NCBI RefSeq assembly: GCF_028713855.1
Contig: NZ_JAQTNN010000002.1
Location: 62,001 to 126,000, forward strand
Length of the DNA stretch: 64,000 bases
Direction of reading: 5' to 3'
DNA from: Sulfuricurvum sp.
GTDB taxonomy: Bacteria > Campylobacterota > Campylobacteria > Campylobacterales > Sulfurimonadaceae
A program made the position numbers and the translations under genes. The notes under the pieces were generated by a model, which ran no database searches, was not told the origin of the DNA, and saw only the letters and a list, made by a program, of their open reading frames with translations. Shown here in pieces: positions 45,454 to 56,137 of the stretch. The stretch's first letter is position 1; the number at the start of each line of letters is the position of its first letter.

Positions 45454-45990
45454 TTAATACAGTCCAAACCGTCCGTCGCCACGTTTGTACATGACACGCA
45501 TTTTCCCGTCATTGTCGTAAAATACTTCGAAAACTTTGGTACTCTCTTTGAGTTTTTCTACTATTTCCGCAACCTCTTGGGGTTTATACAGCACCAACTC
45601 GGTCGGAACGATTTCGTCTTCCATCGTTTCACCGACCGCATGTAAATCAACAGACACAGCGGCAGCATTTTTAGCTTCATTAAGCCCTTCGTTTTTATGA
45701 TCGGAAATCCGGTCATGCAAACGGCGGAGCGCTTTTTGGGCACGATCGATCGCAATGTCGATTGCTGCGTAGAGATCATCGTCACGCTGGGTAATGACGA
45801 TGGTGTTTTTTCCGGCTACGTTGATTGTAAATTCGATCGTAACCCCTTTTTTCCGTTCATTGGCCGAGGCAACGGCATTGACACTGATAAGATCGAGATG
45901 AAATTTGCTGAGAGTATCGATAGAGTGCATCAGATGATCTTTGATTGCATCGCTGAGCTCGATGTGGCGTCCGACGAGAGAGATATTCAT
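45454..45990 (-). CDS. hpf: Ribosome hibernation promoting factor, long form
   Basis: Long HPF dimerises 70S ribosomes in resting cells. ATG 45990 is chosen because AAGGTGG lies upstream and the sequence from there, MNISLVGRHIELSDAIKDHL, is the family N-terminus; the frame's extra 20 codons run into the promoter. The 178-residue protein has the S30AE domain (1-100) and the C-terminal dimerisation domain (about 120-175, VPTELVLYKPQEVAEIV). A minus-strand TATAAT is at 46035-46030. Confidence 0.93.
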   Translation of the reverse strand: MNISLVGRHIELSDAIKDHLMHSIDTLSKFHLDLISVNAVASANERKKGVTIEFTINVAGKNTIVITQRDDDLYAAIDIAIDRAQKALRRLHDRISDHKNEGLNEAKNAAAVSVDLHAVGETMEDEIVPTELVLYKPQEVAEIVEKLKESTKVFEVFYDNDGKMRVMYKRGDGRFGLY

Positions 45991-46029
45991 AATTTGACCC
46001 ACCTTGTAATGATATGTGAAGGAAGTTTG

Positions 46030-46284
46030 ATTATAACACACAAAAAACAAACGTCAAGACTTTTAAGTCAAAAGCAAACCGATAAGTGCAAAATAATTAT
46101 TAACGTATTTTAATGATTCTTTAATCTACATAGCACTACAATCGAAATATGGCGTCTCCTCTATATATGTTTTAGAAAAGAGGGACAATGGTCGATAGTA
46201 TCGGATATTAAGAAGTATTGGGCATATAGTTAGTTTCTACCGAGCCCTGAATGTGTGTGTACTAAAAATCCCGAGGAGGATTAC
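46030..46284. promoter_or_regulatory. Divergent promoter region and structured leader of the tip operon
   Basis: The minus-strand TATAAT (46035-46030) serves hpf. On the plus strand TACAAT (46137-46142) is a likely -10, giving a leader of about 135 bases before ATG 46285. The leader has three possible small hairpins: CCTCT/AGAGG (46158-46183), CGAT/ATCG (46193-46203), and GGGC/GCCC around 46220-46247. GAGGAGGA (46273-46280) is the ribosome site. A regulatory role for the leader is only a suggestion. Confidence 0.45.
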
Positions 46285-49200
46285 ATGAGAAATTTTAAAC
46301 TTATTGCACGACTAACCGCCGTTTTTACTGCGGCGATGATAGTTGCTGTCTCAGGATGGGGTGCAGCTTCTTATGTAAGCGGTGCTACTGCGGCTCAACT
46401 GGCAGCTCAAATTCAAGGGCCGGGTATCACAATTACCAATCCCCAACTTAAGAGAGGAAAAGCTTCTCAGGCGGGGACATTTTCGAACGGGATTGCGGGG
46501 GCAAAGTTAGAAGTTGATGAGGGGATTATTTTAACGGGTATGAGTGTTAATGAATCTTTTACCACAAATAGTTCATGGCGTACATCACTTGATAATTCCG
46601 GCAGTTCAACAGATGCAGATCTATTGGCGATTGATGCAAAGGCAAGATACGATACGGTGGTGTTTGAATTCGATGTTACCCTGGGAGCAAATACACGGCT
46701 TCTGATGGTCGATTATCAGTTTGCATCGGAAGAGTATAACGAATATGTCGGATCGCAATTTAATGATGCATTTGGCTTTTTTGTTTCAGGGGGAGATTTA
46801 ACCAAAACGTATAACATCGCACGAGTTGTGGATGATTCGACGATTGTAACAACGGCTAATATTGAAAACTACGTTCCGGTAACGGTTAATAATGTTAATA
46901 ATGGAAGCGTCGGCATTTATGATGATACTACACCTCAAATTTTAACCAATTCTCAATATTTTATTAACAACTGTGTAAAGGGGACTGGTGTTCCCAATTG
47001 TACTCAATCACAAGCTCCGGTAGATGTCGAATATGACGGGTTGACGCATAGACTGCACGCGACATTGGATAATCTCACTCCGGGGGTTACCTATCATTTT
47101 AAAATGGCATTGGCGGACACCGGTGATAGTCAATGGGACACAGGGGTGTTTGTCAATAAAATCATGGGGATTCGCGGACCGCAGCTTTGTTATGACTATG
47201 CTTACAAACAAAACAACCAGTTTATAACCAATAAAACATATATTGGGCAAACGCCACAAATAGATAGTACCGTGTTCCCAAATACCGTTGTACCGGTTTC
47301 AATCTACATTAAAAATGTGGAAACGTCTGAATTGACAGCCCAAAATTTAAAAATGAGCATTAATGATATCAATATAAGCCAAGCGGTTTATTCACCAAAC
47401 AGTGTCAGTCTGATCGCACCGAATCAAATGACGGCAACATCGATTCCGGATAGCACAAATGGTATGAGTGTAGCTGACAACTATATACATGATATTCCGA
47501 TCGGGCAATTAAAATCCAATGAATATTTTTACCTTGGATACAGTTTGATGCCATCTGTTAATACGTTAAAAATGCCGCTTAATGCTTCTTTGAGTTTTGA
47601 TTTGAGTGTTCAGGGGGTAACGATCCCGTACAGTTATACTTTGGGAAGCAACAAAGTTCCAATGTGTGCTTCTACGGTTTCATATCAGCCCACACCGGGT
47701 ATCTTTAATATGGTAGATAAACAGCTGAATACGGGGACGTTGACCGCAGGATCGACAAATGTCAAATACAATCTTCCGACACAAATAGCGAATCGTCCGA
47801 CGGAGATGAAGCTGGTCTCATTTGATCCAATCAGTACTAATATTGTAAAAGCGACCAATACGGTTGTCGCGGTCGAGATGATTGATGCCGGCGGATATTT
47901 TGAGACCAATGCGTCCTGCTCGGATCCAAGGAGTGCCATTACCCCAAGAGCATGGGTAAAAATTGGAAATTTCGATGCAAATACGACCAATGTAAATTTT
48001 GATAAATCACTTTTGGGAACAGGGATGAATATCGGTGTGACCGAAAGTCAATTCTATAATCAAGTGCGTGAAAATGTTGCATACCGAATGAGCTATAACT
48101 TGGATGATAACAACGGCTCGGTTCAGGTAGAGACGTTGGCAAATGGAAAATCAAAGTTGAAATATTTTACAACGTATGCCGGTGAGAAGTGTATGGTAGA
48201 CATTGATGGAAATCCAAACAGCAATGACACCGTACCTCAGTGGTGCGGAAGTAATGGCGGCGGTCAAGGTACCGGGATGTCACCTGCTGAATTACAAGTC
48301 TGTATGGAGTGTATTTACGGAATGAAAACGCGGGTAGTATGCTCACGGGATAACTTTGCCGTTCGTCCCGAGGCGTTCAATGTACAGATGAAAGATCCAA
48401 CAGGATTGGGTGCTATTCCCTCGGACGCAAATATTTCGGCTGGGTATATGTATAGTTTTGATGCCAATGCTACCAATCATATTGATTCGACTCCGACACC
48501 GGGATATGTTGCTTCCTTCAGCAGTACACAAAGTTCAGCTGATAGAAATGTAACCTTGGCTTGGGAACCTAACGGACATGTGGTGACCGGTTGTAATGAT
48601 ATTACCAGCCCGTTTCTTGAATTTTATTTTGTTGACGGAAAAATTACCAATCAAACGCGCAATCACAATAATGTCGGAAGATATGTCTTACAAGCAAGGG
48701 ATAAAAAATGGGCCGCAGTGGATCAGGCACCGATGAATCATCATGTCGGAAACACGAATTGGATTTCCGGAAACGATTGTGCCGTAGGGGGTGAAGTTCC
48801 TCTTTATGATGCTGTCAATAATACGTACAATCTGAATATGGTTGGATGTGAAATTTCTTCGAACCATTTGAATCATAATACCGGAGTGAAGTACAATGAT
48901 TCGAATTTAACATTTCATCCTTATCAATTTGGAATGAGCGGAAGTTTTAGAATAGGGGAGGGAAATAGTAGTTCCGTTCCACCTAATATTGCCCTCAATA
49001 CCGGAGATATAAAATTTGTTTATATGGCAGATATTAATAACTCTAATGAAATGAATATGTCGGTACGAGGCGATTATCAAATTACTGCACAAGGTGCAAC
49101 CAATGGTGCCTTAAGTAATTTCGTACGCAACTGTTATGCAAAAGATATGAATATTACCCTGAACCGTGTCCACAGCATAAACCAAAATCTGTCAAATTAT

Positions 49201-50151
49201 CAAGCGCGCTTTAGCGATAAAAATGTCTCGACCGGGGTTGTTTTACAAGAGCACAATACAACGGTCGTTCCGTTTGGGAATAAATGGTTACGCACTGCCG
49301 ATGACAGTAATTTTACCAAAGACGGTGCCGGAACTCTAAAAACTGAGGTTCGGCTTAATTATGATCGTAATAGTTTTGTCGTAGTCAACCCTATTACTGT
49401 CACCTTTGGCGATTTTGGTGTCAGCTGCGCAAATCCAGCGGAGTGTCAGCATCGAGCCGATGGTCTCACTTCGCATGAGCCGACAGGTAATACGGTGACA
49501 AATTTTAGTGTAGCCCACTATTATGGTCGTGCACAAGGGCAGTATACACGTATCCGTTCTCCGAGGGCTCAGGTAAATGCCTTCGGGAATGTTCGTGTAA
49601 ATTTTGAAGTATTCTGTGGGGATGACGGCGTAAGTAATTGCAATCTCTTAGGTATTGTCAATGCAAATCCTCTTTTGCTCCCAAGCGGAAGAGTCGCATT
49701 ACGGGGAGATGACAGAGATTGGTATCTAAATCTCGATCATAATGACGTAGATCCGACCAATGCCGCTAATCATGCTGATCACTATTTGAATCCTTACGGG
49801 AGAGCAGACCTTGATCTAACGGCGGTTGGGTCAACTAAGGTGACGAATGCCGTAACGATTTCACGGGCATCACAAAATGGGATTAATGGTATTGTCGTAA
49901 CACAAACAAAAACAGGTTTCGAACGCTACGGCGTCAACTATAGCGGTCAGAATGATTATCCCTATACCGTACTGATCCAAAATACTCCGTCTCCATGGCT
50001 GGTGTATAATCGTCCAGGAGATTTAAATCCAAATAGCAATGAGTATATGTTAGAATTTAACAAAGAGAGCGGATGGATTGGTGAAAGTAAATCGAATCAA
50101 GCAACCGATAACGATGCCGCCATTAACTCCAGCAGGAGGATCATGTGGTAA
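46285..50151 (+). CDS. Secreted protein with choice-of-anchor L domain and MshQ/DUF6701-like C-terminal region
   Basis: ATG 46285 has GAGGAGGA upstream; the open frame starts 10 codons earlier without support. The 1288-residue protein has a signal peptide (about residues 1-35). A choice-of-anchor L domain follows (about 35-300), recognised from GIILTGMSV, DTVVFEFDVTLGAN, MVDYQFASEEYNEYVGSQFND, FGFFVSGG and GVTYHFKMALADTGDSQWD (all as separate pieces). The middle (300-680) is Asn/Thr-rich. From about 690, CSRDNFAVRPEAFNV begins a Cys-containing region that resembles the C-terminal part of MshQ (DUF6701). The gene overlaps a pseudopilin gene by 7 bases. The best guess is a pilus-tip adhesin or a protein displayed by the pseudopilus. 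The domain names are from memory. Confidence 0.75.
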   Translation: MRNFKLIARLTAVFTAAMIVAVSGWGAASYVSGATAAQLAAQIQGPGITITNPQLKRGKASQAGTFSNGIAGAKLEVDEGIILTGMSVNESFTTNSSWRTSLDNSGSSTDADLLAIDAKARYDTVVFEFDVTLGANTRLLMVDYQFASEEYNEYVGSQFNDAFGFFVSGGDLTKTYNIARVVDDSTIVTTANIENYVPVTVNNVNNGSVGIYDDTTPQILTNSQYFINNCVKGTGVPNCTQSQAPVDVEYDGLTHRLHATLDNLTPGVTYHFKMALADTGDSQWDTGVFVNKIMGIRGPQLCYDYAYKQNNQFITNKTYIGQTPQIDSTVFPNTVVPVSIYIKNVETSELTAQNLKMSINDINISQAVYSPNSVSLIAPNQMTATSIPDSTNGMSVADNYIHDIPIGQLKSNEYFYLGYSLMPSVNTLKMPLNASLSFDLSVQGVTIPYSYTLGSNKVPMCASTVSYQPTPGIFNMVDKQLNTGTLTAGSTNVKYNLPTQIANRPTEMKLVSFDPISTNIVKATNTVVAVEMIDAGGYFETNASCSDPRSAITPRAWVKIGNFDANTTNVNFDKSLLGTGMNIGVTESQFYNQVRENVAYRMSYNLDDNNGSVQVETLANGKSKLKYFTTYAGEKCMVDIDGNPNSNDTVPQWCGSNGGGQGTGMSPAELQVCMECIYGMKTRVVCSRDNFAVRPEAFNVQMKDPTGLGAIPSDANISAGYMYSFDANATNHIDSTPTPGYVASFSSTQSSADRNVTLAWEPNGHVVTGCNDITSPFLEFYFVDGKITNQTRNHNNVGRYVLQARDKKWAAVDQAPMNHHVGNTNWISGNDCAVGGEVPLYDAVNNTYNLNMVGCEISSNHLNHNTGVKYNDSNLTFHPYQFGMSGSFRIGEGNSSSVPPNIALNTGDIKFVYMADINNSNEMNMSVRGDYQITAQGATNGALSNFVRNCYAKDMNITLNRVHSINQNLSNYQARFSDKNVSTGVVLQEHNTTVVPFGNKWLRTADDSNFTKDGAGTLKTEVRLNYDRNSFVVVNPITVTFGDFGVSCANPAECQHRADGLTSHEPTGNTVTNFSVAHYYGRAQGQYTRIRSPRAQVNAFGNVRVNFEVFCGDDGVSNCNLLGIVNANPLLLPSGRVALRGDDRDWYLNLDHNDVDPTNAANHADHYLNPYGRADLDLTAVGSTKVTNAVTISRASQNGINGIVVTQTKTGFERYGVNYSGQNDYPYTVLIQNTPSPWLVYNRPGDLNPNSNEYMLEFNKESGWIGESKSNQATDNDAAINSSRRIMW

Positions 50152-52312: not shown

Positions 52313-52345
52313 TTACCCCAATAAGGGGTAATGGAAGCGTTTTTT
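52313..52345 (+). terminator. Rho-independent terminator of the pseudopilin operon
   Basis: Stem TTACCCC (52313-52319) / GGGGTAA (52325-52331) with loop AATAA, and a TTTTTT run at 52340-52345. It lies 20 bases after the last pseudopilin stop and touches the 3' end of the convergent response-regulator gene. Confidence 0.75.
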
Positions 52346-52721
52346 AAAGGGCTAGTTGTGCGATTTTAGCGAGGACATCTTTTTCACGTACTGGCTTCAT
52401 CAAGAATCCATTTGCTCCGCACTCTAACGCTTCCCCTTTTTTGGTCTCATCGGTGGTGAGGACGATGACAGGAAGCTGACGGAGAGATTCATCCGCACGG
52501 ATTACTTTTAGCATTTCAATACCACCCATCACAGGCATAATGATATCGAGCAAGATAATATCGATGTCATTTTGCGATTTGAGTACACCGATTGCATCCG
52601 CACCGTTTTTGGCTTCAACAACCTGTGAAACGTTCGGGGTTTTCATTAACATGGTTTTGAGTAACTTGAGATTGATCATATCATCATCAACCGCAAGCAC
52701 TTTTAATTTTTTCTCGCCCAT
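52344..52721 (-). CDS. CheY-like single-domain response regulator
   Basis: The 125-residue protein is a stand-alone receiver. It has the acidic pair in AVDDDMINLKLL, the phospho-accepting Asp in IILLDIIMPVMGG, the Thr in VIVLTTDETKKGEA, and the Lys in GFLMKPVREKDVL. No output domain is present. It is the last gene of the four-gene signalling operon and may be the target or phosphate sink of the kinase upstream. It is not in a chemotaxis gene cluster, so a role as CheY for the motor is unproven. Confidence 0.9.
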   Translation of the reverse strand: MGEKKLKVLAVDDDMINLKLLKTMLMKTPNVSQVVEAKNGADAIGVLKSQNDIDIILLDIIMPVMGGIEMLKVIRADESLRQLPVIVLTTDETKKGEALECGANGFLMKPVREKDVLAKIAQLAL

Positions 52722-52738
52722 TTAGAATTTCCCCAATC

Positions 52739-55700
52739 TTAAATAAATTTTTCAAAAACAAGACGGAGTAAGTCTTTGTTAACGATGTTTTTGATGATTT
52801 CATGCACATACATCGTATCTTCAACATCTTCCGTAGCACTTGGATCGATGAGCATGACAAGCGATGTTTCACTATCATTGGTACGGATTATATCATACAG
52901 ATCCTTGAGATTTAGTTCGCGAAGTGTTTTGTCAAATAATGCAAGCTTGTAACGGTGATCTTTTAGTTCAGACATCAACTGATCTGACGTATTGACACTT
53001 TTATAGGTGTATCCCAAATCATCCAAAATACGTGAGAAGAGCTTCATTTCCAATGTATTTTGTTTGGCAATCAAAATATCGGCATCAAAGGCTGAACGAC
53101 GAACTTCAGGGAGGCTCTCATCTGCAACCGGAGCAATCTCATTTTCGATTACATCATTTAGGGTCTCTTCTTCTGGAAGTATTGTATCTTCAACAGCCGG
53201 TTCGGAAATTTCCTCACTCACTACCGGAGTTGCTTCGAAAGAATCTTTAAAGATATTCTCACTTTCAATAATCTCAGCAACTTCTTCTACTTGAGGTACT
53301 GCGATATCTACTAAAGGTTCATTTTTCGTGTCAGTATCCTCATCTATGGATTCTGCATCAGAAGATTGTGTAATATCATGGATTGATTTAGGTACGGCTT
53401 TAATATCGATAATTTTATGCGACAAGAAATTATTGAGTAATCCAATAATCTCGGCACGTACCAACGGTTTGGTGGTATATTCATCCATACCGGCGCTCAA
53501 GAAGCGTTCACGGTCTCCTTTAAGTGCATTGGCTGTCAATGCAATGATTGGAATATGGTGTTGTGAATAATCTTCTTCAAAGTCTAAAATTTCTTGTGTT
53601 GCTTCAATCCCATCCAATACCGGCATTTGGATATCCATGAAAATAATATCAAAAGTACCGTTTTTACGTTTTTCGAATGCTTCGAGACCATTGGAAGCGA
53701 TGGTGATCTCAAGGCCTAAATCTTCAAGGGTACGTCGGATTAGTTTTTGGTTAATGACATTGTCTTCGGCAACCAATGCGCTCGCTGCAAATTTGGAGTT
53801 TTTCTCATCGAATTTTTTACGGCGGGTTGCTTTTTGTTTGCGATTACTGAATGCTTCGGCATCATAAGCATCCAACGTCGTACGAATTTTAGAACTATTC
53901 AGCGGCTCATAAAGAACTTTGAAAATATCGATTCCCATAGAATCGATTTTTTTCATATAGTATGATTTGGTGATAAGAACCAACTGCTCTTGAGTCGAAG
54001 CATAGGCCATAATGTCACTGTCATTCGTATAATCATTATCAATGAATAACAGGTCATAATTGACCTGACGTTCTAACATTTTGAGTTCATCAAGTTCATG
54101 GAAGGTCGTATAACTGACACCGAAATAATCCAGATACTCTTTCAGATAGGTGTTTTGGAGTTTTTTCTTCGTATTGCTTTCCAATATGACGGCATTGATA
54201 TTGGAGAATGATCCTTTAAGCGGTTCATTGAGTGTTTCGATTTCTTCAAATTCAAGGGTAAAGAAGAACGTTGTTCCACTGCCCGGTTCACTTTCTAGAT
54301 CGAGTTTAGATCCCATTAGCTCTACGAAGCGGCTTGATATGGTAAGACCCAATCCGGTACCGCCGTATTTACGGGTAATAGAAGTATCGGCTTGAGAGAA
54401 TGCCTCAAAGATACGCGAACGTTGTTCACTGGTTACCCCGATACCGTTATCTTTTACCTCAAAACGAACTCGTGCACGATTTGGGGTATCACATTCGATA
54501 CGTCGGATATCGACACTGATCGCTCCACCGCTGTTGGTAAATTTGACGGCGTTACTGAGAAGATTGATGACAACTTCTTTGATTTTTGTCGGATCCCCTT
54601 TGAGCGGACGCTCAAGGCTTGGATCAACATAACAGGCAAGGTCAATATGTTTTTCAGACGCGCGAACACCATATACTTCGACAGCGCTTTCAAATTCATC
54701 CATCGGATTAAAGACGATCTCTTCAATTTCGAGTTTATTACTTTCAATTTTAGAGAGGTCAAGAATATTATTGATAATTTCAAGAAGATTCTCAGAGCTT
54801 TTTTCGATGATATCGATAAATTCACGTTGTTCATCGTGTAACTCGGTATCTTTGAGCAATTCGGTAAATCCGACGATACCATTGAGCGGGGTACGGATTT
54901 CATGAGACATATTTGCCAAGAACATCGATTTGGCTTCGGATGCTTCCATCGCATATTGTTTATCATTAAGGGTTTGTTCAATGATACGTTCTAGCAATGA
55001 ATATGCTTGTGCTGTACCTTCGGCCGTATCAAGATTGATGGTATGACTGAGAGCTTCTGCTTCGGTGTCGTGGGTATCTTCGGCAACCCGTTTGAGAACC
55101 GATTCGAGATTTTGGATATTTTTGGTAATCTCAGCTGAAAGGAAGTAACCCAATACGGCAACCAAAACGGCAATGATCCAAACGATAATCGCTATAATTA
55201 GAAGTTGAACGGCATGCTGTTGGATTGCCAAGGCACGTTTGTCCATTGCTTCGATCAGAATTTTTTGAGCACCGTCAATGGCACCGATTTTCTCTGAGAT
55301 CATTGCGAACCAAATACCCGACTGTGTTGAGTATTTTCCGGTAGCACTGAGCTGCAAAATTCCGCTTCGTTCAGTTGTAATATCTTGGAAAAGTTCAGTA
55401 TTGTCTTCACTGAATAGAGTAGCTTTGATTTTAGATTGGATATCTTTGTCTTTCATCCCCTCAATCGTAAGCATATCAGCTTTACTCATAAGGCTAATCC
55501 ATTTATCAAGCTCACCGGCGCTTAGTGGGGCAGCACGAGAGAGGAGATAGGTGATGTAATCGCGTTCGATACTACTGTATTCACTTGCGCGAACGAGAGA
55601 AAGATAGGTCGTGGAGAGGGCGTTAATCTCATCATCGAAATGAAGACCTGCCAGTTCGGCAAGTTCATTAATCAGTTGTTCTTGAGATTTTCCATAAACA

Positions 55701-56137
55701 TCTGAAAATACCTGATCGAAATCAGCTTTTTGCGTATCTACGAACGGACGTGATTGATTAAGCTGATTTTGAAGTTTCACAATAAGGGCATTTAATGCTG
55801 TTGCTTTGGCACTTTCAGCGTTATTGGCATGTCCAACAGTTGTTAAATATTTTTCATAGGCTGCAACTTTCTCATCAACAATAAGGCGTTGAGCATGGAG
55901 TGATTTTAGGGTTGCCGGAGAAGCATTTCCCATATACATCACCGTCATACCGCGTTCACGTGAGAGGTTGTTGATTAATTCGGTAAGCTGTTTATTCCCT
56001 TCAAGTCTCACTTGAAGCTGCCCAGCCCCTTTATAACTGACGTACGCATCGAAAACGTAGTAACTGGCAAGGGTAAAAAGTATCAGAATCGGTACGAGAC
56101 TGATGAGGCGGAGTCGATTTCTAAGTCCTAATTGCAT
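52739..56137 (-). CDS. Hybrid sensor histidine kinase with NIT-type sensor and three receiver-like domains
   Basis: The 1132-residue protein has a transmembrane helix (about 10-30), then a helical periplasmic region (about 40-305) of the nitrate/nitrite-sensing (NIT) type, with LINNLSRERGMTVMYMG near its start. A second helix (310-333) leads to the kinase: His412 in MSHEIRTPLNG, N box NLLSNAVKFT (525-534), and G boxes DNGIGV and GGTGLGLTI. A first receiver-like domain (about 645-760) is degenerate, with Glu in place of the conserved Lys (LYEPLNSSK). The second (about 785-915) is complete, with Asp835. A long acidic linker precedes a third (about 1020-1132) that has lost the N-terminal acidic pair. 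Ligand unknown. Confidence 0.88.
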   Translation of the reverse strand: MQLGLRNRLRLISLVPILILFTLASYYVFDAYVSYKGAGQLQVRLEGNKQLTELINNLSRERGMTVMYMGNASPATLKSLHAQRLIVDEKVAAYEKYLTTVGHANNAESAKATALNALIVKLQNQLNQSRPFVDTQKADFDQVFSDVYGKSQEQLINELAELAGLHFDDEINALSTTYLSLVRASEYSSIERDYITYLLSRAAPLSAGELDKWISLMSKADMLTIEGMKDKDIQSKIKATLFSEDNTELFQDITTERSGILQLSATGKYSTQSGIWFAMISEKIGAIDGAQKILIEAMDKRALAIQQHAVQLLIIAIIVWIIAVLVAVLGYFLSAEITKNIQNLESVLKRVAEDTHDTEAEALSHTINLDTAEGTAQAYSLLERIIEQTLNDKQYAMEASEAKSMFLANMSHEIRTPLNGIVGFTELLKDTELHDEQREFIDIIEKSSENLLEIINNILDLSKIESNKLEIEEIVFNPMDEFESAVEVYGVRASEKHIDLACYVDPSLERPLKGDPTKIKEVVINLLSNAVKFTNSGGAISVDIRRIECDTPNRARVRFEVKDNGIGVTSEQRSRIFEAFSQADTSITRKYGGTGLGLTISSRFVELMGSKLDLESEPGSGTTFFFTLEFEEIETLNEPLKGSFSNINAVILESNTKKKLQNTYLKEYLDYFGVSYTTFHELDELKMLERQVNYDLLFIDNDYTNDSDIMAYASTQEQLVLITKSYYMKKIDSMGIDIFKVLYEPLNSSKIRTTLDAYDAEAFSNRKQKATRRKKFDEKNSKFAASALVAEDNVINQKLIRRTLEDLGLEITIASNGLEAFEKRKNGTFDIIFMDIQMPVLDGIEATQEILDFEEDYSQHHIPIIALTANALKGDRERFLSAGMDEYTTKPLVRAEIIGLLNNFLSHKIIDIKAVPKSIHDITQSSDAESIDEDTDTKNEPLVDIAVPQVEEVAEIIESENIFKDSFEATPVVSEEISEPAVEDTILPEEETLNDVIENEIAPVADESLPEVRRSAFDADILIAKQNTLEMKLFSRILDDLGYTYKSVNTSDQLMSELKDHRYKLALFDKTLRELNLKDLYDIIRTNDSETSLVMLIDPSATEDVEDTMYVHEIIKNIVNKDLLRLVFEKFI

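Follow-up and report, generated by a model that had tools for sequence, protein, structure and literature searches.

In a Sulfuricurvum genome, the gene for a large protein with a choice-of-anchor L domain and the three genes that follow it are probably a cassette for the tip of a retractile type IV pilus, in which the large protein would be PilY1-like and seated by its C-terminus on minor pilins. The genes lie in what we call the window, the whole stretch of 64,000 nucleotides of DNA that was analysed. From genome comparison and the precedent of PilY1, the best-supported reading is that the pilus filament would serve as the anchor of this protein. The tip protein would be exported, judging from its N-terminus, and, by analogy with PilY1 and PilX, the last part of its C-terminal module and a free tail may dock on the X pilin, or on the V, W and X pilins together. 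The complex of these pilins with the tip protein would prime the filament and ride on its end, with the head of the protein (here choice-of-anchor L) outermost, where it may bind something outside and be pulled back by retraction. If correct, this would provide a likely tip protein and minor-pilin set for a pilin-less pilus machine in Sulfuricurvum, Sulfurimonas, Sulfurospirillum and relatives, and would add the pilus tip to the possible display modes of choice-of-anchor L domains.

The choice-of-anchor L protein and its gene cassette

The features of the cassette are listed in Table 1, where V, W and X are labels assigned in this analysis. The start of the tip-protein gene was taken as the ATG at 46285, which is preceded by a ribosome-binding site, rather than the GTG at 46255 of the open reading frame list. 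By inspection of its hydrophobic stretch, the N-terminus appears to be a signal peptide; a lipobox was looked for there and none was found. The tip-protein gene and the V gene overlap by 7 bases, in a stretch (AGG AGG ATC ATG TGG TAA) that is used both by the end of the former and by the latter, and the W and X genes then overlap or abut. X has no match to N_methyl or to any other family in the Pfam scan, and its match to the GspK model in the NCBIfam scan is weak (20 bits against a cut-off of 130), although its relatives occupy the same position in other cassettes.

Table 1. Positions in the window of the tip cassette and its parts
Feature	Position	Strand	Basis
Ribosome-binding site AGGAGG	46274..46279	+	Precedes ATG 46285; read from sequence
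Tip-protein gene, 1288 aa	46285..50151	+	Open reading frame; hydrophobic N-terminus by hydropathy
Head: choice-of-anchor L domain, residues 38-291	46396..47157	+	NF038133
Conserved C-terminal module (stalk and anchor), residues 296-1288	47170..50148	+	Alignment of relatives, profile, structure model
26-residue tail ending RRIMW	50071..50148	+	pLDDT <50; ending common to relatives
PilV-like pilin gene, GTG start, 255 aa	50145..50912	+	N_methyl, 21.6 bits (cut-off 21.2)
PilW-like pilin gene, 301 aa	50912..51817	+	N_methyl, 26.8 bits (cut-off 21.2)
PilX-like pilin gene, 166 aa	51793..52293	+	GspK-like below cut-off; matches X of second pilus cluster

The first-pass annotation of this DNA had placed a choice-of-anchor L domain at 46390-47185, and the match to the NCBIfam model NF038133 (choice_anch_L) falls inside that range, with an E-value of 4.4e-52 and 176.7 bits against a cut-off of 27. 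It is the single instance of the domain found in the host genome, and across the order, in 298 genomes, its eight above-cut-off matches all fall on tip proteins of this kind; a ninth match, in genome G112, is weak and below the cut-off. A structure model of the head made from eight sequences is poor (pLDDT 46), and a sequence search of the head against solved structures returned two chance-level matches. The same annotation had seen no C-terminal anchor, which agrees with the Pfam and NCBIfam scans, where no sorting-signal family matches the C-terminus at E<=1 (very short models may escape such scans), and with inspection of the sequence, where the C-terminus has no LPxTG, no PEP and, in its last 150 residues, no membrane-like segment. 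The window protein has its head domain in common with other choice-of-anchor L proteins, but where these carry a PEP-CTERM, LPXTG or Por-type signal it has a C-terminal module linked to pilin genes. A literature search on choice-of-anchor returned no title pointing to this protein.

Linkage to pilin-like genes, which the first-pass annotation had noticed in the window, extends to the homologues. A named set of relatives was collected by scanning a single genome of each species for one peptide pattern; of 154 hits 147 were relatives, 80 of these, at 78 loci, were kept, and the set overlaps that of our first survey. In 69 of its 71 complete cases a V-like and a W-like gene are among the three genes that follow, and in 57 of the 71 the next four include V, W and X. 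The two exceptions to V-W linkage are L126, where V was not called, and L149, on a Nautiliaceae contig. In the first survey a V-W pair was found at 36 of 39 loci with a complete tip-protein gene, the calls being made by gene order and reading frame size and, for most, by the pilin motif as well. The three exceptions (L063-L065) are of one family, in which the tip-protein gene lies away from V-W-X.

Beyond the X gene, on the other strand (52344-56137), the window carries a response-regulator gene and a large sensor-kinase gene, and a 125-aa regulator similar to that of the window stands beside the cassette in several relatives, for example at L041, L043, L049, L078 and L079; control of the cassette by these neighbours is possible. 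Before the cassette, also on the other strand (45454-46050), is a gene that we presume from its resemblance to encode a ribosome hibernation factor, and in many relatives this putative gene is found after the X gene instead. A small gene that we take to be FliW-like is directly 5' of the cassette at L046 (3320-3703), L047 (210-590) and L177 (18285-18668), and another, likewise presumed, is beside the pilin-less machine in the host genome.

The machine probably served by the cassette

Three candidate machines are encoded in the host genome: a type II secretion system at G000:C1, the second pilus at G000:C3, whose cluster is complete and includes a tip-V-W-X set, and a machine without pilin genes at G000:C10. 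The two pilus secretins score 248.1 and 231.3 bits with the MshL model, below its cut-off of 250.2. Where we use the names MshI, MshJ, MshK, MshM and MshN, they are presumed from order, length and layout, unless a family match is given.

In each of four other cassette-bearing genomes (G016, G065, G102 and G149) there is a single MshL-type secretin, which lies in a pilin-less cluster: a tip gene and V, W and X were looked for over 20 kb there and none was found. The only extension ATPase found in each of these genomes is that of the pilin-less cluster, and their full-length W- and X-like genes occur solely in the cassette, the W match of G102 being in two pieces. With no other machine found in these four genomes, the cassette there appears to serve the pilin-less type IV pilus machine. 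Each of them also has two PilT-family ATPases over the cut-off outside that cluster (further matches to the PilT model are one of about 20 bits in G065 and one in G149), and two over the cut-off were found in each of the five cassette-bearing genomes examined, making retraction possible, if these ATPases serve a cassette pilus; the PilT-family model also matches extension ATPases, as with three in the host. In five genomes (G000, G077, G033, G048 and G157) MshL-type secretins, W genes and X genes number two each, and the numbers of secretin, W and X thus agree in nine of nine hand-picked genomes, counting all W and X candidates scored with profiles whose sequences come partly from several of the nine. 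The agreement extends to G033, G048 and G157 of family f16, in which V-W-X are found elsewhere than the tip-protein gene. As the second pilus of the host has a cassette of its own, the window cassette is left, by elimination, to the pilin-less machine.

Across the order, 243 genomes have a clear MshL-type secretin, and the conserved module of the tip protein was found in 190 of these, against 8 of the 55 that lack one. "Clear" here means an E-value cut of 1e-45, set after inspection of the list; the counts were made by hand, and the Fisher test applied to them ignores relatedness. With the MshL model at E<=0.001, 282 of 298 genomes have a match, partly to other secretins, so that co-occurrence alone is weak at that threshold.

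As a serious rival for function, the pilus to which the cassette belongs might take up DNA, like the Cts system of Campylobacter, and the large protein would then work in DNA uptake rather than in adhesion. What makes this rival serious is the order of genes in the pilin-less machine (small protein, secretin, ATP-binding protein, membrane protein, ATPase), and in addition a host pilin gene adjoins a gene that we take to be priA (L081). This order resembles ctsR-ctsD-ctsP-ctsX-ctsE (cj1475c to cj1471c), as given in an excerpt of PMC8308473, and in C. jejuni a pilin-like protein encoded before priA is described, in part of PMC10046745, as needed for DNA uptake. However, the likeness comes from gene order and size only, and the varied heads of the tip proteins, Ig-like, cadherin-like and other, suit adhesion at least equally, so we think DNA uptake an unlikely, though not negligible, function. 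A type IV pilus gene set is reported in half of Campylobacterota species in a 2025 preprint (PMC11870540), and the machines described here may be that set. In gene order our machines are similar to the preprint set and to the Cts genes, and the excerpts of PMC11870540 and PMC8308473 used for this comparison describe no tip protein or V-W-X set.

That the cassette instead belongs to the pseudopilus of type II secretion is very unlikely, even though the host carries a type II cluster (L080) and X is weakly GspK-like. The second pilus cluster has a cassette collinear with that of the window, and among 13 host pilins each of the three window pilins finds its best match in the corresponding member of that cluster: V at 1.6e-11, a match that is lost without the first 45 residues; W at 3.8e-15, or 5.4e-11 without them; and X at 4.3e-21, or 2.2e-13 without them. 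The type II pilins do not match window V, W or X at all once the first 45 residues, with the shared helix, are removed, and in the four genomes above the only extension ATPase found is that of the pilus machine. The tip proteins of the two host cassettes are distant relatives (23% identity over 527 residues, with an E-value calculated without composition correction, and no match by phmmer at E<=10), that of the second pilus having Laminin_G_3 and DUF11 domains. In genomes with PilT-family ATPases, then, the partners of the tip protein are probably those of a type IV pilus machine rather than of a type II pseudopilus. The idea of the first-pass annotation that a pseudopilus might be a new anchor for the domain is partly supported: a pilin filament is the best-supported anchor, given the linkage in 69 of 71 complete cases, the matching counts of machines and cassettes, and the four genomes with no other machine found, but the type II pseudopilus is very unlikely to be that anchor and, given PilY1, the way of display would not be wholly new.

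The conserved module and its C-terminal tail

A search with the whole protein found matches in 90 of the 298 genomes of the order. The best eight relatives align over the full length or nearly so; most others start past residue ~240, and many run to residue 1288. A profile of the module found it in 198 of the 298 genomes, and also recovers tip proteins of the second-pilus type, mostly through its last third; at most two candidates per genome were scored in the tip profile search, and tip numbers are therefore lower bounds. In an alignment of the window protein with 41 relatives, the border of head and module lies just before a CYDY motif (residues 302-305) and is recognisable in 39 of the 41, the exceptions being L078 and L079. 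By title, the named set comes from Campylobacterota groups, with the exception of L147, filed under a Thermoproteota archaeon, whose contig is probably a contamination or binning error. Among the relatives kept, the nearest is from Sulfuricurvum sp. STB_144, with 77% identity over the module and a partial choice-of-anchor L head. Plasmids were searched as well, with no match.

In a Pfam scan of 38 modules we found only scattered weak matches, with at most two members per family, and a sequence search of the module against solved structures gave no match. In an AlphaFold model of the module (pLDDT 80.4, pTM 0.72) the first 160 residues resemble Ig-type adhesin domains; the fold matches listed fall mainly in that part, and PilY1 is absent among them, a result that bears mainly on those residues.

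The C-terminal RRIMW of the window protein represents a motif common to most relatives. Of the 40 complete tip proteins of the first survey, 36 have a C-terminal tryptophan, mostly within [KR]R[IL]xW or a sequence near it; the four that do not are all from the host genus and share another motif, and the end of a contig truncates one more protein. Tryptophan is also the last residue of 61 of the 71 complete proteins in the named set, 58 of them by the script pattern, and seven more are cut; the ending of the other ten is [DE]Y[TSA]P[AS][TI]R, nine being titled Sulfuricurvum and one Epsilonproteobacteria. As a control, tryptophan is the last residue in 6 of 431 other open reading frames of 150-600 residues at those loci. 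The tip proteins of the second pilus type have another ending (L082 3258-8786; L162, L163 and L173), which is GVKIFR in three and GIRLFR in one.

Outer-membrane barrels often end in an aromatic residue, and the tryptophan might be read as such a signal, placing the protein in the outer membrane. We consider this highly unlikely, since the last 26 residues are below pLDDT 50 with no strand in the single-chain AlphaFold model, the first 160 module residues resemble Ig-type adhesin domains, and linkage to pilin genes would go unexplained. A disordered tail of this kind fits instead with one that may fold on a partner, as docking on minor pilins would have it. It is also extremely unlikely that the conserved ending is just a by-product of the signals that start translation of the following gene, its ribosome-binding site and start codon, with which the end of the tip-protein gene does overlap in the window, since the tail codons vary (CGA CGT, AAA AAA, CGC AGG) and the motif persists at loci without the overlap (L060-L065 and L075), contradicting that explanation for the tryptophan.

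We suggest, tentatively and with more doubt than confidence, that in the pili of Campylobacterota a short C-terminal code seats exchangeable heads on the tip made by the minor pilins. The code of this cassette would be [KR]R[IL]xW, that of other Sulfuricurvum [DE]Y[TSA]P[AS][TI]R and that of the second pilus GVKIFR or GIRLFR, each pairing a tip protein with its own pilin set. If true, the pilus tip would be a general display platform with a C-terminal sorting signal of its own. The five-residue motif is open to direct testing.

Relation to known tip proteins and exchange of heads

PilY1, or PilC, of Myxococcus, Pseudomonas and Neisseria is, in the partial accounts used here, likewise a large exported protein encoded with the minor pilins PilV, PilW and PilX. 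Excerpts of PMC11046646 and PMC13190605 describe a variable N-terminal part and a conserved C-terminal part plugged into minor pilins, and propose that a C-terminal segment docks on PilX. A variable head on a C-terminus held by minor pilins is therefore already known, and the arrangement proposed here would be new for this domain and this protein family rather than a wholly new form of display. There are also differences: going by the same partial accounts, PilY1 clusters have four minor pilins, while the window cassette has three, and the C-terminal residues of PilY1 are not those of the window protein. The PilY1 propeller (PF05567) has no Pfam match in the window protein, or in the 38 modules at E<=1. 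Literature searches on Epsilonproteobacteria with type IV pilus and PilY1 gave no title pointing to this protein, and searches on Sulfurimonas with type IV pili and MSHA, and on minor pilins and type IV pili of Campylobacterota, found no paper.

In its place the tip protein resembles MshQ of the MSHA pilus, and the host genome encodes a distant relative of the tip protein in a cluster that also has an MshL-like secretin and an MshEN ATPase. The function of MshQ is described as unknown in the part of PMC9815625 that deals with it. The comparison with MshQ was by profile only: DUF6701 (PF20419) has no match in the 38 modules or in the tip protein of the second pilus cluster, and none in one relative genome, in a search that gave no signal anywhere.

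Head types have changed several times while the C-terminal module has stayed. When the window protein and 41 relatives were scanned singly, choice_anch_L was found on 8 of the 42 heads, and further matches are to Big_9 (8), cadherin-like (8), He_PIG (4), Calx-beta (2), PPC (2) and DUF11 (1), with some overlap between these families. Head lengths in the relatives range from 205 to 1014 residues, the shortest being on a short contig, and choice-of-anchor L heads occur at 12 of the 78 loci of the named set. On a tree of 39 modules the choice-of-anchor L label requires four changes, also when only well-supported branches are used. Exchange of heads on pilus tips thereby becomes testable outside PilY1.

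Between families f1 and f20 the heads are 57-71% identical, the modules 33-39% and a neighbouring protein, which we take to be the hibernation factor HPF, 49-59%. The higher identity of the heads at first suggested a recent transfer between families, but a tree of 15 heads groups the four f20 heads together (support 95/96), so that an old, slowly evolving head that was replaced or lost in other lineages would fit as well, and we did not adopt the transfer. The head evolves more slowly than the remainder of the protein, a hint of a ligand that may not change.

A single pilin set is preceded at L057 (G034:C3) by tandem genes for tip proteins of 1700 and 1770 aa, whose modules are nearly alike, and two consecutive tip-protein genes are likewise found at L095 and L108.
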